Part shown: positions 22,201 to 60,200 of the stretch, piece after piece | How the letters are laid out: the number at the start of each line of letters is the position of its first letter | Numbering within the stretch: the first letter of the stretch is position 1 | Assembly (NCBI GenBank): GCA_013399875.1 | Contig: VXAZ01006873.1 | Span: 62,001 to 126,000 of the forward strand | Length of the DNA: 64,000 nucleotides | Direction of reading: 5' to 3' | From: Gymnorhina tibicen | Lineage: Eukaryota; Chordata; Aves; Passeriformes; Artamidae | Made by a program: the position numbers and the translations under genes | Notes under the pieces: model-generated | Database searches by the model: none | Told to the model about the DNA's origin: nothing | Seen by the model: only the letters and a program-made list of their open reading frames with translations

Positions 22201-22248
22201 ATGGATTGGCTCCCTCACCGAACGGCTGCTTTTCTGTTCCTTTTGTTG
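22201..22248 (+). CDS. DSG4: Desmoglein exon 1 (signal peptide)
   Basis: Sixteen codons from ATG to a gtaagt donor at 22249. The peptide starts M-D-W and continues into a Leu/Phe-rich hydrophobic core, like the first exons of mammalian DSG1 and DSG4, which also begin M-D-W and end in phase 0 inside the signal peptide. The start was chosen for this match and for the strong gccATGg context. Confidence 0.93.
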
Positions 22249-28200: not shown

Positions 28201-31200
28201 TAATCAAGAAATTGAGGTTCCTCTCATTTAAATTTTAATTTTAAAGTAATTACATACTGCATCTGATCCTGCCACCTTTATTTACTCAAGACTAGTTGCG
28301 TAGTCAGGTCTCAAATCAAAATCTACTGCACTCCAGGGAAATCTGCCTGAAAACTGCAGGTGGGTTTCCATCTTATATTGAATCTCCTCTATCTCCCTGG
28401 GAAGTTCCAAGAATACATTTCCATTCTTTTTGGTTAAATTACACAATTAAGTACTCCAGGCTTATTGTGGGCTTTGTAAATAAAAAAAAAAAAAAAGAAA
28501 AAAGAATAAATTATTTAGGATAAATACTTCTCTAGTTTCCTAGACAGTTTGGTAACAACTCTTGCAGCCACTTCTCTCTTCAGCTGAGGTCTTAAAAATC
28601 TGCGTGGAAGCTTTATTTTGATAAGGGTATAGCTTGAAAACTGCTCTGACATACCCATTCAAACTCAAAGTTCTCTCTTGAAAGACAGAATGGATTTTGA
28701 AGGTTTTAACTGTCAAGAAATTCAAGTGCTGGACATAGAAAAAATTGAATTTCACTAAGTCATTTGTGGAAATCTTGTAGCTACTGTCTAGATAAGCTAT
28801 TGCAATAGGCTTCGAAAAAAGTACGGCTCCAGGCCTGCAGTATAGCAATGTCTTGCAGTTGGGTTTTGCTTGCTGCATTTTGCCTTGCATTTTTACATGC
28901 CAATCTTTTTGTTGTTCTTGCAGGTACTCTTGGATTTCAGCACAGGATTTCATGTAGAGGTAAAATACATTGCTTTAGAAACTGCTTTTCTGATTAAATG
29001 AAATGTAACAAATGAAAAAAATCACGTGGAAAATACTGAACTAAGACACTTCTGAACCTGAAGGTTGAAAACATATTTAAATATTAAACAGCTGCAGGTA
29101 ATAACCTGCTCACCCTCTCAAGAGAAATTCACCTAAATCTAAATGAGTATCTCATACAAATGAGTAATTTTAAAATAAACATGTACAGTCATAGAGTTTG
29201 GGACTCACAGACATGTAAAAAAGCACATGGTCTACAAAAATCTCTTTTCTCCTTATTGTTGGAAATTATAATTGTCTGTATTTATTTAAAATGGATTGAG
29301 GTCATATGATACTGGAACTCTTTGTCAAAGGTAAAAGAATGGGATGAAAATGGAATGGCAAGATGGAAAACCTTTAGAAGACAAAAACGTGAATGGATCA
29401 AATTTGCTGCAGCTTGTAGAGAAGGAGAAGATAATTCCAAGAGGAATCCAATTGCCAGAGTAAGTAGAAACAAAAACACAAGCATTCACTGACAAGGAAG
29501 TTTTTCCAAAGACAGGCTGATAAAAGCAGAGAGATTTTAAAATATATATGCTTAGAGTATTCAAAGCAAGGAATGTAGAATGAAAGAAAGATGATGCAAT
29601 ATTCCCAGTTCTGCTCAGACAGTCCCATAAAGTGAACCCATGTGGCTGCTGAGGAGTGACCAGAAGCTTCCTAGAACATTGCTGTGAGTCTACTCCCCAG
29701 GCAGCTCTAGCCAGTGTCTTTGTTCTAGATCATGACACTTTTCTTCTCTCTCTCTCATGCCGAGAAACCCCTGAGCAGAAGTTCAAAGATAATACATGAC
29801 TTGCTGGAAACAGAAAAAAGAAAATACCTTCCTGTTCGCTCACTGTGACCATGCCCTTACTGAGGTCCAACCACAGTGTGATACCCTTGGAAGTTTCTCT
29901 TTTCACCCCCCTGACAGATTTAAAAGACATAGAAAGCCTATCCAGCCCTTAAGGGGAGATGGATCTCCAGGTTGATGCTTTGTAGAAGAGCCTTCTATTG
30001 ATTCCGTCAACTGAAGCTTGTAATAAGTGGTTGAGAAACTGAAGTTATATAGAATTTTTTACAGGAACTAAGAAGAGGAGCAAAAACCCTGCAGGTGTCC
30101 TCAGTAAACTGGCATAAATTATTACTTTCTGTTACTGTAGATCCGATCAGATTGTGAAGAAGACAATCCAATCACATACAGCATCTCTGGAGTTGGAATT
30201 GATCGTGCGCCCTATGGAATATTTATTGTTAACCCAAGAACAGGAGAAATTAATATAACATCAATAGTGGATAGGGAAGTAACACCAGTATTTGTTGTAA
30301 GTACTCACTCTTTTTTTTACCTTTATAATGATGGATCCAGGGCGGGACAGAGAGAGCAAAAGACAACAAATTCGTTTGTTTCAGATTGCTACTTTGCTTA
30401 ATTAACTTTTGGTTTTAAAACAAGTAAATCTCTTTATTTAGATACGTTGCTTTGCTAAACACTCAGTGACGGGTGTAGATTTGGAACCACCTCTTGAACT
30501 TCGAGTCAGAGTCCTGGATATAAATGATAACGCTCCTGTATTTGCACAAACTGTATTTACAGGATCTGTTGAAGAGAGCAGCATGGACAGTAAGTAACTA
30601 CGCTATGCCTTCTACAGTATTGCTAGTGAAGCTTACAGAATGCAGTTAATATAAACCTGGGGTGCTCTTTCTGTTTTTCTTAGGCAATGACATATATTGG
30701 TTAAGGCCACTGCAGAGGAGGGATCAGCAGATGCTTCTCCAAGTGGTGTTTGAGCCAGGGCCTGAGCTAATTGCTATAAATTAAACAGCAATGCTTCCTT
30801 CTCCCTTTCCTCCCACACATGAGTGCTGAATGTTCCAGTTTCTAACCATACCATCATGCAAATTCTTTCAGATGTGAAAATGTCAAATAAATCATTTCAT
30901 TCCTTCTCATTAGAATAAAAATATCATTATACTTATTTCCTTTGAGTGTATGCAAAATACATTTCCCCCATTTTTCTCTTTCAAATATTTGTACTTGCAG
31001 CCTGTATATTTGCAGTTGCAGCACATTATTACTAAATAATTCCATACTTAAACTATTAAAATGGTTCTTTTTACCAAAAGTACAGCAATCAACATTAGAT
31101 GTGCAAATAGCACTGAGGCAATGGTGCCTAACATTCATTTTCTTCTTTCTAGAAATTCTCATTTAAAGCTGTGGAGATTTCTTACAGTAATGTCTACAAG

Positions 31201-34200
31201 CTCAGTACTTACTGTATTTGCATATTCCCTATGGTGATTTAAAGAAGTTCAGTGAAAACCTGCATTATTCCTTCTGACCTTGATTTTTAATTCATTTAAA
31301 AATTCTTTAACATTATCAGAATCAGTACTACAAAACTTAACTTTTGGTTTTCTTTGTAAATGTCAAGGAATAGATAGCCTTCTATCATTTTCGTACACAA
31401 AGTTTTAGCATTGTCTTGATGAGTTATTTGCAGGAACTCAGGAGATTTTCTGTTGGGTTTTTTCTATTATTATTATTTTTTTTTATTTTTAGACACACTG
31501 GTGATGAAAATCATTGCAACAGATGCAGATGAACCTAACCACTTGAATTCTAAAATTGCCTTCAAGATAGAGAGTCAGGAACCTTCTGGTCCACCCATGT
31601 TCATTATGAATAAGTACACAGGAGAACTCCATCTTGCAAATTATCTTGACAGAGAGGTAACATTTCCCCTTCCAAAGCTAAATAATACGATGTGGTCATG
31701 TATATGTGCTATGAGAGTGAAAAAAAAAATAGAAGAGAAAGGTTGTGATTTTTACAAGTATTAATGGAGAAATACGTTTTCAATGTGTTACAATAAAATG
31801 TCTAAGTCAAATTCCTGCATTAGGAAATAGTAGCAAGCATGAGTTATTTATAACATGCACAGATGATCTTCTAACATACTCATTTCTCTTTTTGTGACAG
31901 CAACATAGTAGCTACACTCTTGTTGTGAAGGCATCAGACCGGGATGGGGCTGCAGATGGAATATCATCCCTTTGTAGCTGTAACGTGAAAGTTATCGATG
32001 TTAATGACAACTTTCCAACTCTTGCTCAAAGCTCTGTAAGTTTCCAATAACAAAAGCAGCAACAGTGATTTAAACCGTGTTTTAAAGCCCCACTGATAAC
32101 AGAGCCCTTACTAACCTATAGAGAAGTTTCACAATTACATGCTCCACTGGATTGACAGGGTTGTTCCCTTGAAGCATGCTCGAAATACAATCCATCACTT
32201 GAGCACCAATTCTGGTAACATACACACAGATTATTTTTGTATTCAGAGATGTCAATCCTGACACTGTCAGGACTGACTTCTTTGTATTCAGAGAAATCCT
32301 GTCATTCAGGTGCCCAGACTGCTGCAATACGGCCAGATTATGTAGATTAACCCAATCTTTGGAAGATCATTTCTTACAGAAAGCACAAATCCTTTTACTC
32401 TATGATGCCTCTGCAAACCTTTGAGGTGATACAGCTTTTCAAATCTGTACCCATAATCACAATTTGCCCAGAAGACATGATTTTTTATTAAATTGGCATG
32501 GACTGTGCTCAGAACATCCTTCAAAAGAATATCTGCAGACACTTGTGTTTTCCTCACATTATATATATATATTAATATTTGCTAATCTGTCATTTCAGTT
32601 TTCAGCAAGTATTTCAGAAAATTCACTCAGTTCCGAACTGCTACGTATACAAGCTCTGGATGCTGATGAAGAGTTTACAGACAACTGGTTAGCAGAGTTT
32701 TTCTTTATATCCGGTAATGAAGATAACTGTTTTGAAATTGTTACAGATCGAGCTACAAATCAAGGAATCCTTAGAGTAATTAAGGTATGGATAAATATTG
32801 TGATTCAGCTCTTGACACAGTCATCTTAAAATTTTAATTAATTGTTAACAGAATTAAATAGGCAGTAAAAACACTGTCACTCGACCACTTAAAATAAAAA
32901 ATATTTTAAAAATATTAAAGGAGCTTTTATGTATTATCTGGTTCTCTGTGGTTTACCTTTTAGGAACTGGATTTTGAACATATCCGAACTCACTCACTGA
33001 TGATTGGTGTCAGGAATGTAGCTGCCTTCCACCACTCTGTTGCACATGATTACCAAATATTTGGAACACCCCTCACAGTAGAAGTAAAAAATTTGATTGA
33101 ACCACCAAGATTTCATCCATCTTCAGTTGTGTTTTCCCTGGCAGAAGGCGCAAGAGCAAATTATGTTGTAGGAACTTACACAGCCATGGATGAGGACACT
33201 AGAACTATTGCATCAAATGTTGTGTAAGCTCTGCTCTGATTAACTCCCTGGATGGAATAATTCTTTTGAGATTTCAGTGGGATGAGGAATAGGTATTTTA
33301 AAGGACGCTTTGAAATACAATGTTTATTTATTAGCAATAGAAAAATGGCAGTAGAGTAGTATTATGTGGTATCATATAATATTATATATTATATAGTATT
33401 ACATTCTTTATTATTACAGAATAGTATATAGTCCATTTTTGTGCTATAATTTCTTTTCTTTCCTGAGTGCTTTCCTTAGCCTTATACACAAGACAAAGAA
33501 AATATCATTTTTCTAACAGGCTGTAACTTAAATAAATTAGAACGGGGGGGTTTTCTTACTTAGCCTAAGAATGTGTTTTCTTGAAACTTTTGCTACAAAT
33601 AGGGAATTTGTCAGCATCTTGAAAAAAGCAGGCAAAAAATCCCAATAATGGTCAATATTATCCAATAAGAATAGAAGATGTCACTACCAGCTCATTCCAT
33701 AGTTAAAAAAAAATTTTACACTTATTTCTCTTGAAATTAGTGATAATAACTGGGACTATAGTTTGCTTTTCAGTGTACATAGAAATAAATACAGCCCATT
33801 TACAAATATTTGAAAGAAAGTTCATAAAACAGAGAAATGTGTCAGAAAATACAACTGTATAATGTCATAGCTGCGGATTTAACCATTGATGTCAACAATG
33901 GTTCTAGTTAAGGTTTACAGGATCCAGGAAAACTTTACTTTTAGACTATGATGCCGCTATCAAAATAAAATGGGCTTCTATGCATTTGCTTTATTCCTAA
34001 TTACTTTTCTAGTCTACATCTTTTGGAGACTTCGTGGATTTTGCTTGAACTGGGTGAAATGCAATAGGACTTAGCATAGCCTAAAGAAAAGTGTTCTAAA
34101 GTGCCAAATTTTATCTGCAATATAAAAATGTAATACATATATTCATAACATAATGCTGAGTATTTTTACTTCACCAAACACAGATATAGTATAGGACGTG

Positions 34201-37200
34201 ATCCAGCTGCCTGGTTCAGAATCAATCAAAACACTGGTGAAATCACACTGAACAAAGTTATTAACCGGGATTCAGTCTATGTAGTCAATGGGCAGTACCA
34301 AGCAGAGGTCCTGGCTATCACCAGAGGTAAGAAAAGAGATTAAGTTTTCCGAAATAAACTCTTTCTGTTCCAGATTTCTCTGAATGTTTTTCTTGTTTCT
34401 AGTTTTCCAACCCTAACTGCATTATTTATAGTGTCAGTATTCCCTCCTGACCACAAATATCTTCTTTTTATAGGGGTTCCTCGATATACTGCTACTGGCA
34501 CGGTTGTGCTTTCAATAGATGGCATCAATGCCAACTGCCCAACTATTAATACTGAAATGAGGAAAGTATGTATGCATTCCCCATCGGTGATTATCTCAGC
34601 AAAGCACAGGGATGGTGATCTCTATGCTACTCCCTTTACATTCAGTATACATGGTGAACCTCAGACTACATGGATTATCAGACGAATAAATGGTAAATTA
34701 ACCTACATTTTATAACAGAATAAATCACTGTAATAAACTCTTATCTAAGATAACTGATTAGGATGTTATTAACAAACAAAACACTTACTAGAATCTATTC
34801 AAATCTCAGTTAAATATGAATCTAAGAAGTTACACCAAATTTGAATATATGCATGCATACATATATATATACCATATTATAACTAGAATCAGAATTATTA
34901 CACGTGTTATATTTCAAAGGAAACTGAATATTTACTGACAAAAATAGAGCAGCAAATCTGTACTTTGACTGTAACTATGACAAGAGCCTTTACTGGTCTA
35001 AACATGAGGTAAATCAAAAGGAGTAATTTGATACTTTTTTATTTCTATGTTATCTAAAAAATCCTAAGCATATGAAAAACTCTCACATTTGTTTATTAGA
35101 GTATAAAGTTTATAGCTAGCAGAGCTTTACTTTTATGAGAGGCATATGAAAATGGCAAATTAAGATTACAACTTTCGTAATTTATTGTACCAATCGTACC
35201 TACTCGTATTTTAAAGAAAATTGTTTTAGTCAGTGCCCAGTGAAGCTTTGCCAGTTTTCTTCAACAGGATATGACAAACAAATGAGTTCATCAAATCTCA
35301 TGCATTCCTAAATGACAGAATTTGCATAACTTGCTGTATACATAGAAGACTACATTAAATGGCAAATATCACAATTGCAAGTATTCTTAAGTCTCCTACC
35401 TGTCCTAAACAGCTGCAAATATTTAATTTTAAATACTTTAAGACTACTGAAAAACTTTTTTAAAAACATATATGAGTTCCTTGAGAGAGGAAAAAGAAAT
35501 GCATAAAACTTTCAACTTTTATATTTACCATTGTGCAAATAAAATTCAGGAAAAGCAGCAGTGGAAATAAAAAATCTCATTTTCCTCTTTTGTATTTCTC
35601 AAGTTTAAAGGTGATAACTAGACTGATTTGGCTCAGGTTTTCCACAGAAAAAACCAAGCATAGGTGACTATTATATGTTTCAGCTTTGCATAAGTACTGT
35701 AGATGCATAAGTAATTGAGGTGCTTAGAAAGGGAACACTTCGTTTCATTCTGTTCTATGAACATAACACACAAGTAGTATAGATTTGTAGAACACTTAAG
35801 TCAATACCTTCATCTAAATATTTTTCTCTTTTTTTTTTTCCCCCTCCAAGATTCCTCTGCAGAACTAGTGGGCCAGAACATAGACTTTTACCTTTATAGG
35901 ATCTATGTCGTTGTCAGAGATAGCCAAGGCCGACGCTGCTCTAGACCACATATAATTCCTGTGCAAGCTTGCCAGTGTGATAGCCGGAATTACTGCACCA
36001 GTGGGGCCACAAGAATAATTATCATTGGTGGTGGCGGCGCTGCTGGTGGCGGCGCTGCTGGTGGCGGCACTGGTGGTGGCGGCACTGGTGGCGCTACTGG
36101 TGGTGGTGGTGGTACTGGTGGAGGAGGCCGGGAAGACGGAGGACAACAAGGTGGTGGTGATTACGGTGGTCAAACTAGACCTGGAGGAGGAGATTATGAG
36201 GACCACACAGACTGGCAGGGTTATACTGATGGATATGATGGAGGTGAGGAAGGATATACTGCCTCCACTGATGAAGGTTATGCTGGAAATGAAAATTATG
36301 GCAGACAACTCAACTCAAATACCACACTTAGCGGTGCTGCCATTGGCCTGATGTTTCTCGGTGGATTAATATTTGTTCGTAAGTATAAAATTAAGAAAAA
36401 AAATTTTATTACTTTTCTAAATAGTGTAAATAGTCTATTTTTTAATTCTTCTAAAATAAGGTTGCTTTTTCAGTTGATTGTTAATCCATGGGCTTCTATT
36501 GGCCATTTGACAGAGCAAAAAAATTGTCTTTTAAATGAAAAGAATTTCTATATATTTTATGTTACACACACATACAATTTTCATTCAAAATTAACCATTT
36601 CCTTTCTAAGACTTGTTATCCAATTCTTAGACAGAGCTATCCTGTCACTTACATTTTGCAATTTGTACTTCCATTACACTACTAGAAGAAATGTGCAAGT
36701 ATCAGCTCCAAGTTGGGTATGAAAAGATCTAAAGAATAAGAGTCCTTTGAACTCGAAGCCAGACTTCAGCAGTGGAAAAATAAATCCTCTTAGATTTTGA
36801 AACTTTTGGCCACTCCTTCCAAACATTACATCTAATAAAAAACAAGTAGCATTTATGATAACAGGATCAAATCAGAACATTGATTCATTTGTCCTAGCAT
36901 TCACGAAGAATTATGAGCTTCATGGATTCAAGTTAGAATTTATACAAGCAATTATTTCTCAGACCACCACAATCATAGGTGATCAACCTTCTTTCATGGC
37001 CTGGGCATCAAGTAATCAACATCCAAAATTTCCCATTGCAGAAATACTGACTACAAAACCTGAGGAAACTGATTTTTTTTTCCACTGATTTTTTGAGGAG
37101 GGGTCTCTGGTTCAGGTTTTGATCTTTGTTTAGTAGGAATCAACAAACACAAAATTTTGAAGCTTCAAAAGGCTGTTCAGTTTGTAGTCCCCAGATGGTT

Positions 37201-40200
37201 TATCTTACAGGACAGACTGTCCTTCTGCCTTTGGAAGTTTCCCCTGGTAGTCTGGAGTAAGTATGTCCTTAGTCATGCAGCATGAGGCAGCACTTTGTAC
37301 ATGGTATAGCCCCTTCCCGTTTTCATTTCACTTTGATGTTCAAGAAATCAGAGGGCTGGGAGCAACTCTCCTATGAAAACAGGCTGAGAGAGTTGGGACT
37401 GTTCAGACTGGAGAAGAGAAGGTTCCAAAGGAAACCTTCGGGCAGCCTTCCAGTACATAAAGGGGGCCTGCAAAAGACCTGGAGAGGGACTTTTTACAAG
37501 GGCATGTAGTGCCAGGACAAGGAGCAATGGATTTAAACTGAAAGACACTAGGTTTAGGAAGAAATTCTTTACTGTGAGGGTGATGAGACAGAGGCACATG
37601 TTGCCCACAGAACTTGTGGATGCCCCATCCCTGGAAGTGTTCAAGGCTGGGCTGGATGGGTCTTTGAGCAATGTGGTAAATGGAAAGTGTCCCTGCCCAT
37701 GGCAGAGGGGTTGGAACTAAATGGTATTTAAGATACCTTTCAACCCAAGCCATTCTGTGATTCTATGAATTAATATTGCATTGCCTTTCTAAAATAAGCA
37801 ATGTTTTTGATGCTGGCCATTACATCATTCTGCAATTTCTTTAAAGCACTGAGTTCTTTAAACTACTAAGCATAATACAGCACTCTGGGAAACCTGACTC
37901 ACTCTACATAAACATTTGGTGAAACTAGGGCTTGGGGTTTGCCCCTACTGCTTTTTCAAATCAAACATTATGTATACGTGATGTGAAAATTGCAACTGGA
38001 GCCTTAGCCAAAGATCACTGTAGTCAGGTGGGTTCTCCACTGATTCACATATGTCTATTACTACTAATGTGTATTTCTTTTCAATTACAATACTTGAAGA
38101 GACAAATGTATGCTTATATATCAGGTAAGAATAGCACTGAATGCTATACATAGCAAGACTTGTTCTGTTTGTTTAATTTTCATATGTATGCAACTTATAT
38201 TGGTTCAGCTGAGATAGATCAAAGTCTGTTCCCAGGTGCATAAGCATAAATTTGGAGTAACAGCCCCACCCCTGTGTTGCTCTGCTATAACTAAAGGTAC
38301 AAATCATTCTGAATTTCTAAATACATGCACCTCTGTAAGCAGCTAATGATTCTGAAAGCCGGACTTACAGGCTGCTTGGTTAGAAACATTTTAAAGGCAT
38401 ATTTTCAAAAGTTCATGAGCACCTGCCCTCTGGGGAAAGCAGCTATTCCTGTGAGGAAGAGATGTCCTAAATCCTTGTTTCCTGTTCCTTTCCTGTTAAG
38501 TGATTCCAATTTTGATGTCAATGAGTGACTGTTGTGGCTGTGGACCTGGCGCTGCAGGTGGAGTTGGAACTGGATTTGAACCTGTACCTGAATGCACAGA
38601 AGGGGCAATTCATCCATGGGGAATAGAAGGTGCACAGCCTGAAGACAGGGTCAGTACATCCCATGTTTCTAAAATCAGAAGTAATTCATATTTAGAGAAA
38701 AGGCTGCATTTGACTATAGAAAGTGATAGTAGCACTGCATCATCTAAAACAAGTCTGGCATTGACAACAATTGCCAGGCAGATATGACAGGTGATTCTTA
38801 ATTACATTTACTGATGGAGTTTATATGTTTAAAGTTGTGCTCAGTTAGCTTGGCACAACAGGTTGGTGTTACTATTCCTCATGTTCACTTATGATGAAAC
38901 AATAACTAACAAGCTTCTTCGGTGCAAGTTTAGGAGGAGGGAACACAAATCTTCTTCACTGATCATTGTTTGTGTTGACAAGGAAAAACCTTGTAGTCTC
39001 TTTTTTTTGTTTTGTTTTGTTTGTTAATGGAGATGGTGATAATGAATAACTATCATTAACAGTTTAGACTGCTAATTCCTTAACATAATTCACAAAGTCT
39101 TGGTCTTCATATGGGAATTTCAAGGTAATCATTCAAGGAGTCAAAATGTTGTTTTCCAGGATGTCTCGCACATTCTTGCCCCAACAACAGCAGCAGGAGG
39201 TGATTTTGGTGAACCTTCTGGTAAGCAGATCCTTAAATCTTTTATGTTATGCTGTCATAAAGCTGTCTTTCAGAACTTCATGCCTACTGATCCATGAAGC
39301 CCTTTGGTTTCCCAACTATAGCCCAACTCTTCCAATCTTACATCTGCAGATAGTCAAACTAATGCTCGGAGGAGCTCCAGTATGAATAAAAATCTGGGGT
39401 TTGAGCTTTTGAGTAGATTCATTTCAGCAAACTATACTTACTTTGAAATATCTGCCAAGGCTTTCAAATTCCAGGCATTTTTTCTTTATCAGTGCAGCTA
39501 CTGAATGGAAGGTCTTCTCAAGACACCAGTTTTAGCAGAAATCAATCTTGAGCCAGGATAAGAATATTTGCTTTCATTCCACGGGTAAAAGGTACAGTTC
39601 TTCCCAGTTTCCAGGCTCTGCTTCCCATAAGGGAGTACATCAAATAGCTAGTTAATTACTGACAATTTTGTGTGTTAACTAGACAAGCTGGTACATAGCA
39701 GAGTAAATTTATGCTTCTGAGATAAGGTTCCTCTAGGAATTCAGTGATCATAGTGAGTAAGTCAAGCTGTGCAGTGCCACTTTCTCTTTCTCCCCCATTC
39801 CTTACTTCAGAAGAGGAAGGAAGCATGCTAGCACAGATCCATTTTCACTATTTTCTGACATGAAGAAATGTTACTCTGCGAGACAACTTCTCTGCTATTT
39901 ATTATACTAAAAAATGTTCTCATATTTCTCATTTCATAAAAATGAAAAAAATACATAATTTAGCCTGTTTTCTTCCCAGTGTAACCATAGTCAAGACTAC
40001 TGTACACAATTCTTTTATTATAATATGTGCCGATCATTAAGAAAACTCTTCCCTTGTTATCATGTATTTAAAAAATCTGGAGAAGATAAAATCCTGTATT
40101 ACTTTATAACTTATTGTAAAGACCATTTTCATTCCAGACTATAAACTGGTGGTTATTATGATCCATTGTTGTTCTCCCCTAAAAAATCTCACTACTAGAA

Positions 40201-43200
40201 AATGTGAAAGGAGTTACAAAACTCTTTATTTTCTAGGATTTACAAAACTCTTTATTTTCTAAGTGTGTAAGGGAAAAAAATTTCTACCCTAATGTGATCA
40301 TAAATATAAGTTTATGTATTTGCATAAATATCCATAAACATTATCTGATTTTCTAACACAAACCCTGTGACAGCATATATACACACTAAACAGAATAATC
40401 TTTCCAGCAAATAACAGAAGTAAATCACTGATTTTCTAAAACACGTGCACATGCTGCCTAGCCAGGAGTAAAATCAAGGGCTTAGATGTCTGTTAATACG
40501 TATTTAATTATTAGTGCAGTGTCAATGTTTGGTACCTGTGTACGTACCTGTGACTGAAATTGGTTTAAAATACCTTTAGAAACTCAGTAGTTTCCTTACA
40601 GCATTTGTAAAAACAACTGACAAATTGTGTGTAAATTTTCACAAAGCACAGGAAGGATAACTTATTCTGTTTTCAGAAATATATAATAACACATATGGCG
40701 GAGGAGGAGTAGTAGCTTCTGGTGTTGAAGAAACTACAGGGGTTGGCTACGGCACTGGTACTGGCTACGGAACAGCTGGAGGGATTTCTGGAACAGGGGA
40801 AGCAAAGGGGTCAATCGGAGGAACAATAAAAGAGTATCGAGAAGGAGGAGTGAACATGGCCTTCCTAGACAACTATTTCTCTGAGGTAATTAGTTGCTAT
40901 TCTTTGAGTTACATCTGTGAGCATACTTTCTGCTAGATTCTCCTCCACGGGTTACAGGATGGAAATCCAAATTAATTCTACTCAAATAGAAACTTCCATG
41001 ATACAAGACTGCTGTGAGAGCAAAGCTGACCACACTGGTAGGAAAAGTTACAACACTAGTAGTAGTACTGTCTTTGAGCTGCTGCCATAGTAGATTGATT
41101 ATTCAACAGCCTTCTTGTAAAATTTTTTTAAATTACAAATTTTGTAAAATTTGTACACTGCAAGTATGGGTAAGAAGCAATTAAATGATTTCAGCTTCAT
41201 AAGTACCCACTAAATTTATGTATTTTCCACCTTTTTCAATGTATGAATATCTAATAACTTTATGAAATTGTTCACTCCTACTTCCTGTACAGCTTGTTTG
41301 ATGAAGTCATTTTAATCCTTAAAGAACTTTGAACATCAGTTCTTCCTTATTTTTATTGACATTTCTGCTCCCTAAAAGATTTGTGAACTGCCAGTGACAC
41401 TGATATGCAGCTTTTCAATTGGTAATGCCTTAATTAGCCTTAATATGGGATTAAAAAAATGGTATGGAATTTACATGATTAATGGTTTCATGGGCTATAT
41501 TTTTATTCATATGCACGAACTGTGAGGCATAAATATTATAATTGCATGTCACCAAAATAACAATTAAGATATAAGGATTGCTATATTTCAAAATCTAAAC
41601 AAGGTTCAGTGGAGGAGAGAACAGAGCAGTCCTGACACCCTGAGCATGGTTTTCTCCCAGACTGCAATATTCCTGCCTTGGCCTGGAGCCCTATGTACTA
41701 ATTGTCTGCCGGCCATAGGCCTCCACATATTACTCCTGCTATCCTCCTGGACCATCTCAATCCCCAAACTCTCTGACTCTCTGTCCCAGGCCTCCCCTTC
41801 CATCCTTTCCTGCTTCCTCCGACCTCATGCTGCACTCACTTTAAATTCTCCTCTTTCCTGCCTGATCTCTCTTCAATGACCACTCCAGGATCCCCAACAT
41901 CATCCCCATTTCCATCTTGCTCACAATGGACTCCCCTCTGGACTCACCAAGTCTCCCCCACTGTGGACAATCTTCCATCCCATCTCCTCTATCCTGGTCT
42001 CTCCATTGCTCCCCTTGCCACCCTGCTTCACTCCTCTTCCTACCACTTTGTTCAGATACTGCTGCCCAAAGAAGGCATCTCTTTGCCTGTCCCTTTGCCC
42101 CACAGACAGACCCACTGACAACAGACCAAATTTGAGATGCTACATGTTGACAGAAAAAAGAATAAAACACAGTAATATTTAAATAAAGTTATTTCAAGGT
42201 TAAAAAATGTTGATGGTATAGTCTGTCCTGTTGATATCCTATATTTAAAGTCAGCTGGGCCTTACTGTGGTTAGGGAAATTCTACTGTGGTTTGAGTATT
42301 CATGGTTAAAAATCTGACAAAATTCATTCTGTTCTTCTGTTCTTTTTTTTTTTTCATTTTTTTGTTTTTGCAAACTACAGAAAGCATTTGTGTATGCAGA
42401 TGAAGATGAAGGTCGGCCAGCAAATGACTGCCTATTAATCTATGATCATGAAGGAGTCGGTACTCCTGTTGGCTCTGTGGGTTGCTGCAGCTTTATCGGA
42501 GAAGATACAGATGAAACATATTTGGATACATTAGGACCAAAATTTAAGACCCTAGCAGAGATCTGTCTGGGCAAAGAGATTGAACCTTTCCCTGATGTCA
42601 ACCCACCCTGGCCAGGCGTCAACGTTGCCTTCCCCAGCCCTGAAAGTGATCTAAACCTCCCGCCACCCGGTACCACCATCGTTGTCAATGGAAGCGCACC
42701 TATGCCTCCCCCAGTTGGCACTACAACGGTTGTTACTGAAAACACCTACACGTCTGGGACGACCATACAGCCCCCGAGGCCAATGCCGGATCCCTTGCTC
42801 CACGGCAACATGACGGTGACCGAGACCTACACCTCCGGCTCCCCCTCTTTTCCCGTTGACCCTCTGCGTGCATCCAACGTCGTTGTGACAGAGAGGGTTG
42901 TGGGGCCTGCGTCCGCCTCTGATTTGCGCGGCATGCTAGATATCCCCGATCTCACAGAGGGCTCCAACGTTATCGTCACGGAAAGAGTAATTGCGCCTAA
43001 CTCCCGACTCCCGGCATCTCTGAGCATTCCTGATTTGGTAGATGGGTCAAATGTGGTAGTGACAGAAAGGGTGTTCAGGCCTGCCTCCGGCATGCCGGGC
43101 AGCCTAATAAATATTCCCTCAGAGTTATCGAACGCCCACAATGTGGTGGTCACGGAGAGAGTAGTGTCAGGGTCTGGGATGAGCAGCCTGGGAGGAACAA

Positions 43201-43352
43201 GTCTAGGGGGAGCAAATCTGGGTGGCCTGAGCAGCACGGGTCAGATGCTCAGTGCTGACTGTCACCTTGGCCAGGGAATGGGCACAGTGTCTCCAGGCAC
43301 CTCCCGGAGACGAGTGACAAAGTACAGCACTGTGCAGTACTCCAGTCAGTAA
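22201..43352 (+). CDS. DSG4: Desmoglein (DSG4/DSG1-type), complete 16-exon gene
   Basis: Desmosomal cadherin: a single-pass membrane protein that forms calcium-dependent adhesion between epithelial cells and anchors keratin filaments through plakoglobin, plakophilin and desmoplakin. Joining the 16 exons listed below gives 3543 bp, or 1180 residues, with every phase matching. Human DSG1 and DSG4 are about 1040-1050, and the excess lies mostly in the extracellular anchor. Order: signal peptide (1 to about 24), propeptide ending R-R-Q-K-R (to 48), mature start E-W with the conserved Trp2 (50), cadherin repeats EC1-EC4 (about 49-490), anchor with Gly tract (601-634), membrane span (about 703-725), Cys-rich juxtamembrane segment, catenin-binding segment (about 845-915), tail repeats with V-T-E-R-V (about 960-1140) and end T-K-Y-S-T-V-Q-Y. 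Ectodomain and juxtamembrane parts recall DSG4 and the tail recalls DSG1, so the paralogue name is tentative. The family assignment is very secure. Confidence 0.95.
22249..28923 (+). other. Desmoglein intron 1
   Basis: A 6.7 kb AT-rich intron. No exon or repeat of a known family was recognised inside it. Short open frames (for example 25766-26101 and 27489-27896 on the minus strand) carry no domain. It ends in a T-rich tract and cag at 28921-28923. Confidence 0.7.
28924..28959 (+). CDS. DSG4: Desmoglein exon 2 (36-bp microexon)
   Basis: Twelve codons ([12 protein letters not shown]) flanked by ttcttgcag and gtaaaa, phase 0 on both sides. Mammalian desmogleins have a second exon of the same size here, covering the end of the signal peptide and the start of the propeptide. 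Too short to be found as an open frame. It was located by the splice pattern and the family's exon structure. Confidence 0.92.
29331..29459 (+). CDS. DSG4: Desmoglein exon 3 (propeptide and mature N-terminus)
   Basis: Forty-three codons. Contains the furin-type site R-R-Q-K-R, followed by the mature start E-W-I-K-F with the adhesive Trp2, then [14 protein letters not shown]. Acceptor cag-less tcaaag before 29331, donor gtaagt at 29460. Nearly identical in wording to DSG1/DSG4. Confidence 0.96.
30141..30296 (+). CDS. DSG4: Desmoglein exon 4 (EC1)
   Basis: Fifty-two codons, phase 0 on both sides, between ctgtag and gtaagt. Encodes the first half of EC1, including [19 protein letters not shown] and D-R-E calcium-site residues. 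Confidence 0.97.
30442..30589 (+). CDS. DSG4: Desmoglein exon 5 (EC1 end, EC1-EC2 linker)
   Basis: 148 bp ending in phase 1 with donor gtaagt at 30590. Carries the linker calcium motif L-D-I-N-D-N. The position that reads R-A-L in human desmogleins (after I-Y-C) reads F-A-K here, at 30451-30459. Confidence 0.97.
30590..31492 (+). other. Desmoglein intron 5
   Basis: A 903-bp intron with no recognised element. It ends in a long T-rich tract (about 31459-31490), a strong polypyrimidine signal. Confidence 0.8.
31493..31656 (+). CDS. DSG4: Desmoglein exon 6 (EC2)
   Basis: 164 bp, entering in phase 1 and leaving in phase 0 with donor gtaaca. Encodes [16 protein letters not shown] and L-D-R-E of EC2. 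Open reading continues past the donor into the intron, but splicing to exon 7 restores the family sequence. Confidence 0.97.
31901..32035 (+). CDS. DSG4: Desmoglein exon 7 (EC2 end)
   Basis: Forty-five codons between gtgacag and gtaagt. Encodes [10 protein letters not shown] and the calcium linker D-V-N-D-N-F-P-T-L, wording closest to DSG4. Confidence 0.97.
32036..32598 (+). other. Desmoglein intron 7
   Basis: A 563-bp intron with a short TA repeat near 32562-32574 and no other recognised element. Confidence 0.8.
32599..32784 (+). CDS. DSG4: Desmoglein exon 8 (EC3)
   Basis: Sixty-two codons between atttcag and gtatgg. Encodes [21 protein letters not shown] and F-I-S-G-N-E-D-N of EC3. Confidence 0.97.
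32964..33223 (+). CDS. DSG4: Desmoglein exon 9 (EC3-EC4)
   Basis: 260 bp entering in phase 0 and leaving in phase 2. Encodes I-G-V-R-N, F-H-H-S-V, then the EC4 start with [11 protein letters not shown]. The donor is gtaagc at 33224; placing it there and not two bases earlier is required by the frame of exon 10. Confidence 0.95.
33224..34183 (+). other. Desmoglein intron 9
   Basis: A 960-bp AT-rich intron. An imperfect ATATT/TATA microsatellite lies at about 33371-33402. Nothing else was recognised. Confidence 0.8.
34184..34326 (+). CDS. DSG4: Desmoglein exon 10 (EC4)
   Basis: 143 bp, donor gtaaga. Encodes [18 protein letters not shown] and [11 protein letters not shown] of EC4. Confidence 0.96.
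34474..34692 (+). CDS. DSG4: Desmoglein exon 11 (EC4 end, start of extracellular anchor)
   Basis: 219 bp between ttatag and gtaaat. Encodes [10 protein letters not shown], then S-P-S-V-I-I-S-A and P-F-T-F-S-I. The motif usually reading D-I-N-D-N/Y-C-P is D-G-I-N-A-N-C-P here, so the calcium motif closing EC4 is altered. Confidence 0.95.
34693..35850 (+). other. Desmoglein intron 11
   Basis: A 1.16 kb AT-rich intron with a short ATAC/ATATAT run near 34846-34872 and a strong T/C tract (35821-35848) before the acceptor. No other element was recognised. Confidence 0.8.
35851..36378 (+). CDS. DSG4: Desmoglein exon 12 (extracellular anchor, Gly tract, membrane span)
   Basis: 528 bp, entering in phase 1 and leaving in phase 1 at gtaagt (36379). 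Starts with D-S-S-A-E and continues [10 protein letters not shown] and a Cys cluster ([10 protein letters not shown]). These match the membrane-proximal domain of DSG3/DSG4. A Gly tract of 34 residues with Ala/Thr breaks follows (residues 601-634), then about 65 residues rich in Gly, Asp, Tyr and Glu, then [16 protein letters not shown], the first part of the membrane helix. The exon is larger than expected because of the low-complexity insert. Confidence 0.94.
36027..36128 (+). repeat. Coding GGT/GGC tandem repeat (poly-Gly minisatellite)
   Basis: Imperfect tandem repeats of ggtggcggc with gctgct and act interruptions, inside exon 12. They encode runs of three to five Gly broken by Ala or Thr. 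In the other frames the same DNA gives Val/Ala/Leu-rich (+) and Ser/Thr-rich (-) shadow frames. The GC content is far above the surrounding gene, and the repeat is likely to vary in length between alleles and species. Confidence 0.93.
36379..38500 (+). other. Desmoglein intron 12
   Basis: A 2.1 kb intron that splits the membrane helix coding sequence. It contains one CR1 fragment (37350-37769). Open reading from exon 12 continues to 36722 but has no family similarity. Confidence 0.8.
37350..37769 (+). mobile_element. CR1 LINE 3' fragment in intron 12
   Basis: About 420 bp of CR1 in the gene's orientation. It holds the end of the RT open frame (wording such as [11 protein letters not shown] and L-E-K-R-R) and the 3' UTR ending cattctgtgattctatga. 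5'-truncated and frameshifted, so not functional. Confidence 0.92.
38501..38649 (+). CDS. DSG4: Desmoglein exon 13 (membrane helix end, juxtamembrane)
   Basis: 149 bp. Completes the membrane helix (L-I-P-I-L-M-S-M) and encodes a cysteine cluster D-C-C-G-C-G, a likely palmitoylation region in desmogleins, then [13 protein letters not shown] and [11 protein letters not shown]. The donor is a less common gtcagt at 38650, chosen because the next exon resumes D-V-S as in DSG4. Reading through would add 45 unrelated residues. Confidence 0.92.
38650..39159 (+). other. Desmoglein intron 13
   Basis: A 510-bp intron with a T/GTTTT-rich stretch near 39001-39024. The exon 13 frame stays open for the first 135 bases. 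Confidence 0.75.
39160..39220 (+). CDS. DSG4: Desmoglein exon 14
   Basis: 61 bp between gttttccag and gtaagc, phase 0 in and phase 1 out. Encodes [20 protein letters not shown], corresponding to the D-V-S-N-I-C-A-P segment of DSG4. Confidence 0.9.
39221..40676 (+). other. Desmoglein intron 14
   Basis: A 1.46 kb AT-rich intron with a direct duplication (acaaaactctttattttcta, twice around 40216-40262). No other element was recognised. Confidence 0.75.
40677..40885 (+). CDS. DSG4: Desmoglein exon 15 (Gly/Thr-rich linker, start of catenin-binding segment)
   Basis: 209 bp between ttttcag and gtaatt. Encodes E-I-Y-N-N-T-Y, a Gly/Thr/Tyr-rich linker, then [18 protein letters not shown], the conserved run into the intracellular cadherin segment (DSG4 reads N-M-A-F-L-D-S-Y-F-S-E). 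Confidence 0.95.
40886..42380 (+). other. Desmoglein intron 15 with a pyrimidine-rich block
   Basis: A 1.5 kb intron. The first half is AT-rich. About 41600-42120 is strikingly C/T-rich on the plus strand and much more GC-rich than its flanks. It is followed by AATAAA at 42161-42166. The T-rich acceptor tract runs to 42380. Frames within the block are composition artefacts. Confidence 0.7.
42381..43352 (+). CDS. DSG4: Desmoglein exon 16 (catenin-binding segment, repeat-unit tail, stop)
   Basis: 323 codons plus TAA at 43350-43352. Begins [22 protein letters not shown], the plakoglobin-binding segment. G-S-V-G-C-C-S-F-I and [11 protein letters not shown] follow. Next is a Pro-rich linker, then repeat units with V-T-E-N/T and V-T-E-R-V, a short Gly/Ser/Leu-rich terminal domain and the end [12 protein letters not shown]. 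The large last exon is typical of desmogleins. GC content rises in the repeat region. Confidence 0.98.
42720..43180 (+). repeat. DSG4: Desmoglein repeat-unit domain (coding)
   Basis: About six related units of roughly 25-30 residues in exon 16: [17 protein letters not shown], then four with N-V-[VI]-V-T-E-R-V. Mammalian DSG1 has five such units and DSG4 fewer well-formed ones, so this tail is DSG1-like. The repeats are diverged at DNA level and not recent. Confidence 0.85.
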
Positions 43353-55559: not shown

Positions 55560-56699
55560 CACTATAACCTCATTAACAGTGCGCTGGATTGGCAACCAAA
55601 AACGCGTTCAGAATTCCACAAAGCAACCTGTAGATTAAGAAGAAAGTTTCAAATCAAGGTTCTTCTCTTACAGCCTTTTGATGTAAAGAAATACTTAACC
55701 ATCTAGAAAACAGAACATACATCTGAAAGCAGAATCTACTTCTAAATCACCAAATTAAAAGGGTTGTAATATGAATGCTCTCTGAGACATGCTCTGCCTC
55801 GTTTATCTCAAACAGGAATAACTAAAAGAAAACTTCACAGTACTTCTACTACCATTAGCTGCAATAGCTACAACGGCTGTTAAACCTGCGCCAAAATAGA
55901 CCCCTGTCCTCCAGATCCCGAAGAAGATCCTCACAGGATCTCAGCGTGTACTGCTTTGTGAACGTGCACAGTTCTGTTTGGTTACAAAGTATCAGTCCAG
56001 AGCAGTGACTCAGTGACAGAACAAAGAAAGAATACAAAACCCCTTAATACTGTGCATTTCACATGTATTAGCTTGTTTGTGCCTTTTGTTTTCTTGAAAT
56101 TAAGACAACTGTTTTTATGCAGGGCTATCAGCAAACTCTGTAAATCAGGATATTCTAAGTAAATAAGCAGATATGTGTCACTTCAGAAAAACTTGTGAGG
56201 TAAAGTTCTTCTCCTCATGATGGCCATGGAAATTAAAATTATTGCAACTGACTTTGAATGATTTATTGTGCATTGTTACCACATGCAATAAATGGTCATA
56301 ATGTGATTGCAAAGAATCCCACTAGGCTGGTTCCCCTCTCCGAGCCCCAAAAGCATCACAAATAGTATCATAACCAGCGAGTTTGGAAGTTACTTACCAC
56401 AAATGAGTGTGATCCTGGAAAGATTAACTAGGTAACTGCCTCAAAGAAGAGAGGATGTAGAGAAAGCACGTTTAATTGTTTCGCCATCATGAAGAATCAG
56501 TTATGCCTTCGCAAGCACTAATTAATCAGGTGTATCCAGGAAAGATCTCTGCCAGATAAGAGTAGAAAGGATATGGCTCGAAGCGTATAAAAATGAGGAT
56601 TACAGGGAAAATTGTCCTAAAAAATGCCCACAATTTTACTTTCCCGTGAGACTGCGCTCCCCCCTATCAATTACTCGTTAATGTATCAGTTTGTTGTCA

Positions 56700-57290
56700 C
56701 AGCTGCTCTGCGCGTCTCCTGCGCGCTCCAGCTCACCTTCCTCGGCGGAAGTGGGGGAAACAACCCGCAAACTTTGGGAGCCCTGGGGAAGCTGGGGCCT
56801 GGCGCTCCGAGAGCTGCCCTGTGCAGCCTCCGCGGGCGGAGCTCGGCGGGCGGGGGACTCGCCGCTGCGGGCCGGGCGCCCCGAGGGAGGGAAGGAGGGA
56901 AGGAGGGAAGGAGGGAAGGAGGGCCGGAGGGCCGGGCCGGGCCGGGCCGGGCGGGGCTCGGGGCCGGACACCTCTTGCCCCCTCCTGGCGCGGCTCCCGC
57001 CCGGCACACTCCACCCATCCGCGGGTACTTGTGCTCCCCTCTACGGGCTGCCGGCATTCCCGTGGTGGGCGGCCGGAGCAGCTGAGCTCGTCCCGGCACG
57101 GCGGTCATGTCGCGGGGCCCCGTGGCGGCGGTGCGGCTGCTGGCGCTGCTGGTGAGTGCGGGGCGCTGCTTTGCCGCGGGGGTCCCTCGGTTCCGGGGCG
57201 CTGCTTTGCCGCGGGAAGGGAGAGCGCGGGATGGAGCCGCGGGGGGGCCGCTGCGGGGGTCCTGAGTGCGGCCGCCGGGGAGTGGTTGTT
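56700..57290 (+). promoter_or_regulatory. DSG2: CpG-island promoter of DSG2
   Basis: An abrupt switch from AT-rich DNA to very GC- and CpG-rich DNA, centred on the start codon at 57107. It contains a GGGA/GGAA-type repeat (about 56882-56925), repeated GGGCC units (to about 56953) and a GC box GGGCGGGGC at 56949-56957. No TATA box was seen. This is the usual setting of a broadly expressed gene, as DSG2 is in epithelia and heart. Several long frames on both strands here are artefacts of base composition. Confidence 0.85.
57107..57151 (+). CDS. DSG2: DSG2 exon 1 (signal peptide)
   Basis: Fifteen codons from ATG to donor gtgagt at 57152. The context is cggtcATGt. Arg near the start and a Leu/Ala/Val core make a signal peptide. 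Ends in phase 0, as exon 1 of other desmogleins does. Confidence 0.88.
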
Positions 57291-60200
57291 CCCGTCGGGA
57301 CTTGGCAGCCCTCCCAACAGCAGCTGTATGTGGCTGGGAAGGGGCTTTCTCTCTTTCTTTGGGAATTAGACAAAAGCCATCGCCGTTTGCTACCTGAAAG
57401 CAGGTGGAGGTAGGAAATCCCAATAGGAACGGTATCTGGGATGGGTGGGGTTGCTGCGGTGCCGGGAGGAACAGGAACGCAGTGAGGAGTTCACGTTGTT
57501 GCCGTTTTCATGTTCAGCATAGTATCTATACTAGTAAATTCCATTTCCCTTTTGAGGGAACAGTGCCAGGAGGGAAGATGAACCAAAAAGTTTGGAAGTC
57601 TTTATCGCCTTAGAAAAATTACACCAAATTCTGAACAATCCAAGACACTTCAGGCTTTCTCCTGCCCTGCCCTCGCTATTTTTCAGCCATCAGCCTTTAG
57701 ACCTTCCATCCTGTGAAATACTTTCTCAGGCTAAACGCAACGACTATCTTATAACAAACTGACACCAAAATACTTGGTTTGTTGGATTTGCACTGATGCT
57801 TTCTAGCTCTTTCTAGCTGGTTTACAGCAAACTCTTTGTTATATCTGCGGCATTTTCTTTTGCTTTTCACCGTTCTAGGCTGGCAGAATGCCTGCGGAAG
57901 TCGGGCTGCCGCCACTCACACGAAGGTGAGGGTGAGGCCAGGCCCTGGGCTATGCCGGGAGCTGCCGAGCAGCTGGGCAGGGATCAGTAATGGCTTCTTG
58001 CTTAGACAGAATGGAAGGTGCTGGGTGTCGGGATCTTGTTCTCTGAGCTTGGAATCCTGCAAAATCAGATTTGTTATCTAGAGACCTACTGCCTGATAAC
58101 TTTAATACAGACATATGGTTGTGCACAAGTTGGCCAGCAACAGTTAAACCTGGTTTTTTACAGCAAGCTGGTAGTTGGGATTTGGTTGGAAAATGTTTTA
58201 TCCTCAGTTTGTCCAAAAGAACGATGGAAAACATGGAGTGCCACTTGTACAAAAGTTTTTACGTATTCTCTCTGTAATACCTGAAGCCGCACCATCGTCC
58301 ATTTTGTTGAGCTTGTACTGGCTCAGGATGCTGTTAGTTTTGACTGAAGAACATTGTTTTTCTCAATCCTCATCATCCTCAGTTTCAGGTAAGGCTGGGG
58401 CAGGATATGATGTAGTGAGAGCCAACTCAGTTTCGTGCCTAAAAGCCTCATTGTCAGATAGAATATTAGAGCAAATAAAGCTGCCTTAGTTGGCTGATGT
58501 CAGAAGAGAAAGAGAGGCACTGCTGGGTTTTGAAATTTTGGGGTTTTCTTCATAATCTAGACATTCATGTGGTAAAAAGTCAAGTTTCTTATTTGAGAGT
58601 ACTGGATTAGGGTCATTTATTTCTTATGAATCTTAAGAAACTACTGAAAAACAAAATTAGTCTAAAAGTAGTGTCTTCTCAAAGCATCTTCTACCTTAGA
58701 AGCATCAAGAATGGTAGGTTCATCCTCTCCCAGTTTTTCCTGGAAGTGTCTCTCAGTGCTCCCTCCCTGCCTGCAGGCTGCATCCCTGTATCATCATCCC
58801 TGGGTACCTCGCAGAGGTTACGGCAGATTTCCCCAGGCCCCTGCCTCTGACCCTTTTCCAGGAATGTTCGGCTGTGCTGAATGGTGGTGCACCCAAAGGG
58901 TTGGGCTTGACTTGGAGCATGTCCAGGACACACACCCTGGGCCTGCCGGGCGGGTACGGCTATCAAGGATTATTGGACTGGGAGGTTTCTTGGTCATTTC
59001 TAAAGGGGGTGGACATCATGTCTTCGAGAGAAGAAGTCTTAGAACACTTCCTGCATCTGAGTGAAAGAATAGTTGACAGAGATGTATGAATCTTACTATG
59101 GGAGTAGCAAAATTTACTTTTTTCTGAACGTCTTCCTCAGACTGTACTTTGTTGATGTTTGGGATGTTACACTTAGGCTGGGTATGATGAAATTCAGGCC
59201 TGAATATATTAGATCGCTACTGTAATGTCAGAGCCAGTAGCAGGTAATTTTCAGAAGTCATAGAAACAAGTTAAAATAAAAACCATCACAAAATGATGCT
59301 TGGTTTTACAAAGAGCAGAGGTGAGCTAATTCAAAGCAACCTAGCTTTCGTTGCCAGTAACATGTTGAAACATGGTAAAAGTATTTACAAGCATCTGTGG
59401 ATTGATTCAGCATTTTAATATTGTTCCAAAAAGGAGGGAAAACCCAGCTGTGGTGAGGTCTGAAAGCAGCTGAGAAATATATAAGGTCTAGTATTATCCA
59501 TCCTATTGAAAAGAAGTGGTATGTTACTTTTGATACCAGACTTCAGAAAAACTGGATCTGTCCAGGAGAGACTACAGAACAGCAAAACCAAAATGCGATC
59601 TAAAGTCACTAAATCCTGTTTCATGATTTTTTAAATGGAAATTAAAGAACTGGTATGTGAGAAAAGTGAGTAGGATGTTTGATAAGTTTGCAGATACATG
59701 AAGGGTAGAAGAAAAGGGAATTGTGATGAAAAGGGAATTGCACCATACAATGAGAGCATTGTCAACACAACAAAGAAGGAGATTGGGTCTGAGGTTAAGA
59801 CATCTCAATATAGGTGTTTAAGCTTCTGTTAGGGTAAATGGAGATGCAGTGGATGCTGAGTGCATCTGTTTGGTTGGATCAAATTGTATGTTTGAAGCAA
59901 ATCTCAAGAGTGTGTGAATCGCATTCCTCCTGGGTGAAACCATGTTGGGAGATGTACCCATCTGCTTTTAGATGTTTGATCTGTGGGACCAAGCTAATTC
60001 TAGTCTAAGGGATCCATCAAAACATGGGTTGGGTGGTGTTGGGTTCTCTGTATCAAATGCTTTGCTCTACAAATCCTCCTGTGTTGGGTTTTCAAACTGA
60101 ACATCCTTACAATCAGTAGAGCTCAGAGAGAAATAGATATGGGCTGGTTTGGGGGCAAGTTGAACAACACTCCGATCTCTGTTGGTACTGCCTATATTTC

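Follow-up and report, generated by a model that had tools for sequence, protein, structure and literature searches.

A glycine-rich linker between the cadherin repeats and the membrane recurs in desmogleins of birds and squamates

The window, by which we mean the whole 64-kb stretch of Gymnorhina tibicen DNA that was analysed, contains on its plus strand one complete desmoglein gene. In coding exon 12 of this gene a glycine-rich linker is inserted, in frame, between the last cadherin repeat (EC5) and the membrane span. The same kind of linker is found in birds and squamates, and turtles among the matches listed are without it. Our preferred explanation, which we hold to be probable, is that the insert is a disordered entropic spacer and swivel for the EC1-EC5 rod.

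In the gene model all junctions of exons 3-16 are GT-AG and the frame closes at a stop codon, giving 1152 residues without the two signal-peptide exons. Exons 3-11 are based on a Pfam Cadherin match and on the PDB desmogleins 3 and 2, while the signal-peptide exons were located by tblastn. P0001 is a close homologue of the encoded protein. The features are:

22201-22248, plus strand: coding exon 1, signal peptide MDWLPHRTAAFLFLLL, donor gtaagt; tblastn of P0001 residues 1-17 at 100%
28924-28959, plus strand: coding exon 2, VLLDFSTGFHVE; tblastn, in agreement with the family consensus
29331-34692, plus strand: block of coding exons 3-11, with the RRQKR propeptide site, EC1-EC4 and the start of EC5
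29331-29459, 30141-30296, 30442-30589, 31493-31656, 31901-32035, plus strand: exons 3-7
32599-32784, 32964-33223, 34184-34326, 34474-34692, plus strand: exons 8-11
35851-36378, plus strand: coding exon 12, with the second half of EC5, the linker and the first half of the membrane span; 528 bp, phase 1-1
36015-36026, plus strand: hydrophobic lead-in IIII, by prediction the last beta strand of EC5 (strand 597-600 in P0001)
36027-36128, plus strand: Gly tract of 34 residues (25 Gly, 5 Ala, 4 Thr)
36129-36329, plus strand: acidic Gly/Tyr block with five conserved Tyr positions
36330-36378, plus strand: first half of the membrane span, SGAAIGLMFLGGLIFV, split in phase 1 (helix 699-721 in P0001)
38501-43352, plus strand: block of coding exons 13-16 (38501-38649, 39160-39220, 40677-40885, 42381-43352)

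The encoded protein has the hallmarks of a desmoglein. A propeptide cleavage site, cut after RRQKR and before EW, precedes EC1 and its conserved N terminus with Trp2, and R45, Q46, K47, R48 and W50 are invariant across 45 aligned rows. Tandem cadherin repeats follow (Pfam Cadherin, four stretches, E 5e-55), and the protein matches the solved structures of desmoglein-3 (PDB 5eqx, E 6.8e-176) and desmoglein-2 (8qjx, E 9.6e-133). There is a single membrane span; exons 13-16 encode the rest of it, the intracellular anchor, a catenin-binding segment, the NVVVTERV repeats (four copies of NV[VI]VTERV) and the stop. A cadherin Y-type LIR segment is also matched (Pfam CADH_Y-type_LIR, E 4.2e-08). Searching the 64-kb window by tblastn with P0001, DSG3 and DSG2 as queries returned only exons of this gene, and no second desmoglein.

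Some other features of the window may be mentioned here. The exon of the intracellular anchor (40677-40885) has a Gly-rich stretch of its own, GGGGVVASGVEETTGVGYGTGTGYGTAGG; Gly-rich segments thus flank the membrane on both sides. Two reading frames, at 7740-8974 and at 37350-37770, the second within the intron after the Gly exon, seem to resemble a reverse transcriptase of a CR1-type LINE and the 3' end of such an element. The G+C-rich island at 56600-57600, which has GGAGGGAA and GGGCC repeats, may be a neighbouring gene's promoter.

Codons 36027-36128 translate as GGGGAAGGGAAGGGTGGGGTGGATGGGGGTGGGG, and 67 residues rich in Gly, Thr, Asp, Tyr and Glu lie between this tract and the membrane span. 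The first-pass annotation had described a 34-residue Gly tract with Ala/Thr breaks and about 65 residues rich in Gly, Asp, Tyr and Glu, in exon 12 of a desmoglein just outside the membrane, with an open frame and matching phases on both sides. Re-reading the codons confirms all of this: the exon is the twelfth when the two signal-peptide exons are counted, and the tract lies in frame between EC5 and the membrane in a gene whose frame continues to the stop. The same kind of stretch is found in the predicted proteins of many birds and squamates. So many glycines are not expected by chance: when the full 64 kb was shuffled 40 times with dinucleotides preserved, the best stop-free 34-residue stretch held 6 to 10 Gly, against 25 observed. 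At the DNA level a 15-bp unit recurs in imperfect tandem copies over 36026-36091, and the Gly codons are mixed (GGT 13, GGC 10, GGA 2). The tract contains no Lys or Arg and no Tyr, Phe or Trp, the aromatics being confined to the block that follows.

A first protein search gave 2841 matches, and the best 120 of these are all birds. Of the 120 listed models, 84 include both linker ends, marked by the last EC5 cysteine on one side and the membrane span on the other. Apart from the mallard, these linkers are 67-129 aa long (83 of 84, median 97), and Gly makes up 30-90% of their best 20 residues; lengths are approximate, as the start of the membrane span was set by a hydrophobicity rule. At least 50% Gly in the best 20 residues is reached by 70 of the 83 birds, and 13 fall below. 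The mallard model P0104 has both ends but a linker of 33 aa and no Gly tract, perhaps through mis-splicing, and was left out of the bird set, which was restricted to linkers above 40 aa. The nearest of the 120 listed rows to the window protein is Chamaea, presumably also a passerine, with 97% over the protein excluding the linker. An assembly error or a private insertion is ruled out, since relatives carry the tract.

The repeat units are (GGGGT)n, (GGGGA)n or (GGGGV)n in many birds. The length of the linker changes while its flanks persist, with IIII(G)n upstream and, downstream, the Tyr block ending in YGR..TTL. A set of 83 linkers, made up of 82 bird rows plus the window, has a composition of 35% Gly, 11% Thr, 9% Asp and 7% Tyr; no linker in it has a Cys, and the median net charge is -11 (range -15 to 0). 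Six aromatic columns, five Tyr and one Trp, are conserved in the acidic block: the five Tyr positions ahead of the membrane are aromatic in 81-95% of the linkers, and the Arg of YGR is retained in 95%. When each Tyr is judged by its acidic neighbours, a simple rule of our own, the median linker has 4 Tyr that look like sulfation sites, which is only a suggestion.

The remaining 36 of the 120 listed bird rows lack one end: three skip the exon, five splice out of the linker and the rest are mostly cut models. The three skipping models (P0065, P0080 and P0090, the last from chicken) do so in frame, and two lizard models, P0257 and P0258, likewise pass directly from the preceding exon to the following one. 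Exon 12 is symmetric (phase 1-1), and skipping it would delete half each of EC5 and the membrane span. Such models may be either annotation faults or real isoforms, for example a soluble form. For P0256 (Sphaerodactylus) the Gly codons seem to have been translated out of frame in the database protein (VVLVVVPVVEQVV...), through a frameshift of the model near the tract. Users of the databases should be aware that models of sauropsid desmogleins often cut or drop exon 12.

Two further protein searches with altered queries, of which the best 120 of 198 and the best 120 of 211 matches were listed, brought in turtles, squamates, tuatara and mammals. Both ends are present in 15 of the 20 listed squamate rows of this type, and all 15 have a Gly-rich linker of 91-168 aa (13 above 110 aa), whose best 20 residues are 65-85% Gly; in snakes it is (GGGGA)n. 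The lead-in before the squamate linker (e.g. RVKVIIIGGGGAGGG, RITVTIIGGGAGGG, RITVIVGGSAAGGG) resembles the TKIIIIGGGG or TRIIIIGGGG of birds. A feather-specific invention is rejected because squamates have the tract, and the proposed specialty of feather and beak is likewise not borne out, as lizards and snakes share the tract, mostly in a longer form.

Turtles are different. Seven of the 11 listed turtle rows are two-ended, one for each of seven species, and in all seven the linker is only 24-58 aa long with at most 30% Gly; a Gly-rich linker is absent from these seven models among the matches listed, of which the shortest may be cut. The tuatara models P0149 and P0216 do not show exon 12, and no crocodilian was among the matches listed (best 120 of 2841, of 198 and of 211). 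Comparing orthologues over exon 12, as the first-pass annotation had suggested, therefore finds the tract recurring in birds and squamates, and turtles without it.

In mammals the picture depends on the paralogue. The linkers are 30-39 aa in DSG4 (nine chosen rows) and 16-24 aa in DSG3 (four chosen rows), without a Gly tract in either. In contrast, the four DSG1 rows, two from monotremes (P0323, P0328) and two from marsupials (P0229, P0239), have no EC5 Cys motif, and a long low-complexity linker rich in Gly, Ser, Thr and Asn stands where the motif would be; that of platypus (P0323) is Gly-rich and includes GGQAGGQGSSTGGGGPGGPGG. The expectation that this region is short and tractless in mammalian DSG1, DSG3 and DSG4 thus holds for the latter two but fails for DSG1. 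DSG2 linkers are 2-7 aa long (five chosen rows: two mammals, two birds and a lizard), by the same rule 2 aa in Pogona, 3 in Hirundo and 7 in Anas, and a chosen caecilian row has 12 aa.

The relationships were studied with a quick tree of 37 proteins, with DSG2 set as outgroup and a warning from the tool about a long-branch join at that outgroup. A sauropsid clade of 19 rows has a support of 100; within it turtles group with birds and tuatara with squamates, and its branch meets those of mammalian DSG1, DSG3 and DSG4 in an open fork. On this tree the window gene is a sauropsid co-orthologue of mammalian DSG1, DSG3 and DSG4. It does not group with a single mammalian paralogue in the 37 rows, and we reject an orthologue of DSG1 or DSG4 alone. 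Because of the open fork, the database names desmoglein-1-like and desmoglein-4-like are both loose. As turtles group with birds, one gain followed by a loss in turtles costs the same as two gains; the similar hydrophobic lead-in in birds and squamates favours a single origin of the tract.

Could the tract be a neutral passenger? Gly-codon repeats might grow and shrink by slippage wherever any disordered chain is tolerated, and the tract would then be functionless. This is the main rival of the spacer explanation, and we consider it unlikely, though far from negligible. It would account for the imperfect 15-bp repeat, for the freedom with which length and the Ala/Thr/Ser/Val breaks differ among birds, and for a tract that is almost gone in several bird lineages and absent from turtles among the matches listed. 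However, the tract is retained in every two-ended squamate and in most birds at the 50% level, glycine is kept across mixed GGT, GGC and GGA codons (even if this mixing partly follows the repeat unit), and the Tyr block and the lead-in are conserved. The retention in squamates and the conserved flanks speak against neutral repeat drift, but not decisively.

The reduction of the tract in birds has a possible ecological side. It was examined in 82 bird rows, after 8 rows had been omitted as further copies of a species and every row lacking either flank had been omitted too, the latter including a penguin, an egret, a goose and a duck. A Gly maximum per 30 residues of no more than 13 is seen in 16 of 24 waterbirds and in one of 58 other birds (Psophia). 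A PGLS on the gene tree gives a slope of -3.6, with t -2.9 at the best lambda, 1, and t -7.9 at lambda 0. Only four independent pairs lie on well-supported branches, with which a sign test is unable to reach 0.05. Several waterbirds go against the trend: cormorant (25), razorbill and two gulls (19), penguin, skimmer and skua (16) and stork (15). Habitat labels were assigned after the low-Gly list had been inspected. The tract may have eroded mainly in waterbirds, a post hoc pattern that we offer as a hypothesis only. The birds with eroded tracts (P0028, P0030, P0032, P0033, P0034, P0035, P0052, P0070, P0092, P0098, P0100, P0103, P0109, P0112, P0114 and P0118) are almost all waterbirds, namely waders, ibis, pelican, crane, finfoot, goose, loon, diving petrel, grebe and flamingo.

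The structure of the linker was predicted by running AlphaFold2 on P0001 with a 45-row alignment. Residues 602-699, between strand 597-600 (IIII) and the membrane helix 699-721, are predicted without secondary structure and at a pLDDT under 50, with ten-residue means of 27-38. Confidence in the whole model is low (mean pLDDT 55, pTM 0.32), most low residues being in the cytoplasmic tail, and pLDDT is only a proxy for disorder. The predicted disorder fits the earlier suggestion of a flexible spacer, and as in spacers of the (G4S)n type there are Gly4-small-residue repeats without predicted structure. Using a persistence length of 0.45 nm, we estimate for a 105-residue chain a contour of about 40 nm and an rms end-to-end distance of about 6 nm, against about 1-3 nm for DSG2, DSG3 and DSG4 lengths.

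In the spacer explanation, tandem repetition of Gly codons would have lengthened the juxtamembrane linker into a long, uncharged, disordered chain, followed by the acidic Tyr-rich block. On such a linker the folded EC1-EC5 rod would stand off from the membrane by an adjustable distance and be free to rotate. Rods could then still pair though cell membranes stiffen, curve or drift apart in cornification, and load would be absorbed first by stretching of the chain. An early figure for the desmosome gap in human skin, given in PMC11317759, is about 300 angstrom; a spacer on each side might allow rod stand-off and swivelling at the scale of this gap.

Several observations bear on this mechanical role and on its presumed tie to cornified epithelia. 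The bearded dragon DSG1 of claws and skin is presumably the same locus as the window gene. A bearded dragon protein named DSG1 is reported, in PMC11704414, as detected by mass spectrometry in claws and skin. EC5 domains in mammalian cells are described as orientationally ordered in PMC11317759, and a loose tether is therefore unnecessary for desmosomes as such. Given this order, the spacer explanation predicts less EC5 order, or a wider and more variable gap, where tracts are long. The tract is not required for cornified epithelia either, because all seven two-ended turtles are without it. Against the spacer it may also be said that repeat-like DNA could expand without benefit, and that 13 of 83 birds are under 50% Gly in the best 20 residues and mallard P0104 is tractless.

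Another explanation is that neighbouring Gly/Tyr-rich linkers stick to each other near the membrane, in a Gly-loop or silk-like manner, and stiffen the desmosome. The six conserved aromatic columns would suit such a layer, and loricrin, with 40-55% Gly, is described as forming flexible loops in PMC11816140. We still find self-association improbable: the Gly tract is without aromatics, no structure is predicted for the linker, and the median net charge of -11 (-15 to 0) favours repulsion unless calcium bridges the linkers.

It could also be that the linker controls shedding, with the Gly tract as a protease-resistant collar and the Tyr/acidic block with YGR as a programmed cleavage site by which corneocytes are set free. 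In desquamation mammalian DSG1 is cleaved, and the absence of Lys and Arg from the tract, followed by a membrane-near YGR whose Arg is so widely retained, would agree with a putative cut site there. The contrast with turtles, however, follows shedding in no clear way, and we regard this as the least credible of the explanations and as very improbable.

Returning to the spacer, a broader reading would include its history and its link to the epithelium: desmosome stand-off in land vertebrates might be tuned by a slippage-prone Gly repeat. The spacer would date from the DSG1/3/4 ancestor of sauropsids or perhaps, in view of platypus DSG1, from that of amniotes. Squamates and many land birds would have lengthened it, turtles would have lost it and waterbirds would have worn it down more than once, and its length would track dryness, stiffness or hydration of the outer epithelium. 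Taken jointly, these parts make a speculative whole that we think doubtful.

Among the titles and abstract openings listed by searches of the open-licence literature, none describes this insert. As far as seen, the feature is real, recurrent and, within the literature searched, undescribed, in a protein and a family that are already known. The work on the desmosome gap and on cadherin order in PMC11317759 used mammalian cells and tissue. If birds and squamates carry the same ectodomain on a several-fold longer chain, they provide a natural experiment on the membrane-side linker, and the reductions in turtles and waterbirds supply comparisons for its role.

A glycine-rich insert in a desmoglein ectodomain has been described before. 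Zebrafish Dsg-alpha has one of about 40 residues, of unknown function, but it lies in EC3 of a DSG2 orthologue and is called unique to zebrafish in PMC3268089. The extracellular anchor of mammalian DSG1, DSG3 and DSG4 belongs to the same gene family as the sauropsid linker and occupies the same site between cadherin repeats and membrane; DSG3 and DSG4 differ by their short linkers without a Gly tract, whereas DSG1 (four rows) likewise has a long low-complexity linker but is without the EC5 Cys motif. The Gly loops of loricrin and keratin tails share with the tract a very high Gly content within epidermal proteins, but they are intracellular. In Gly-loop proteins of the loricrin or keratin-tail type, aromatic residues alternate with the Gly runs, while none is found among the 34 residues of the tract, and membership in this class is rejected. 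The suggested likeness to cornified-envelope and keratin-tail proteins hence fails for the Gly tract and rests only on the separate Tyr block. Synthetic (Gly4Ser)n linkers consist of Gly4-small-residue repeats, and the bird and snake units are alike to these; the sauropsid linker differs in being natural and extracellular, with an acidic Tyr block attached.
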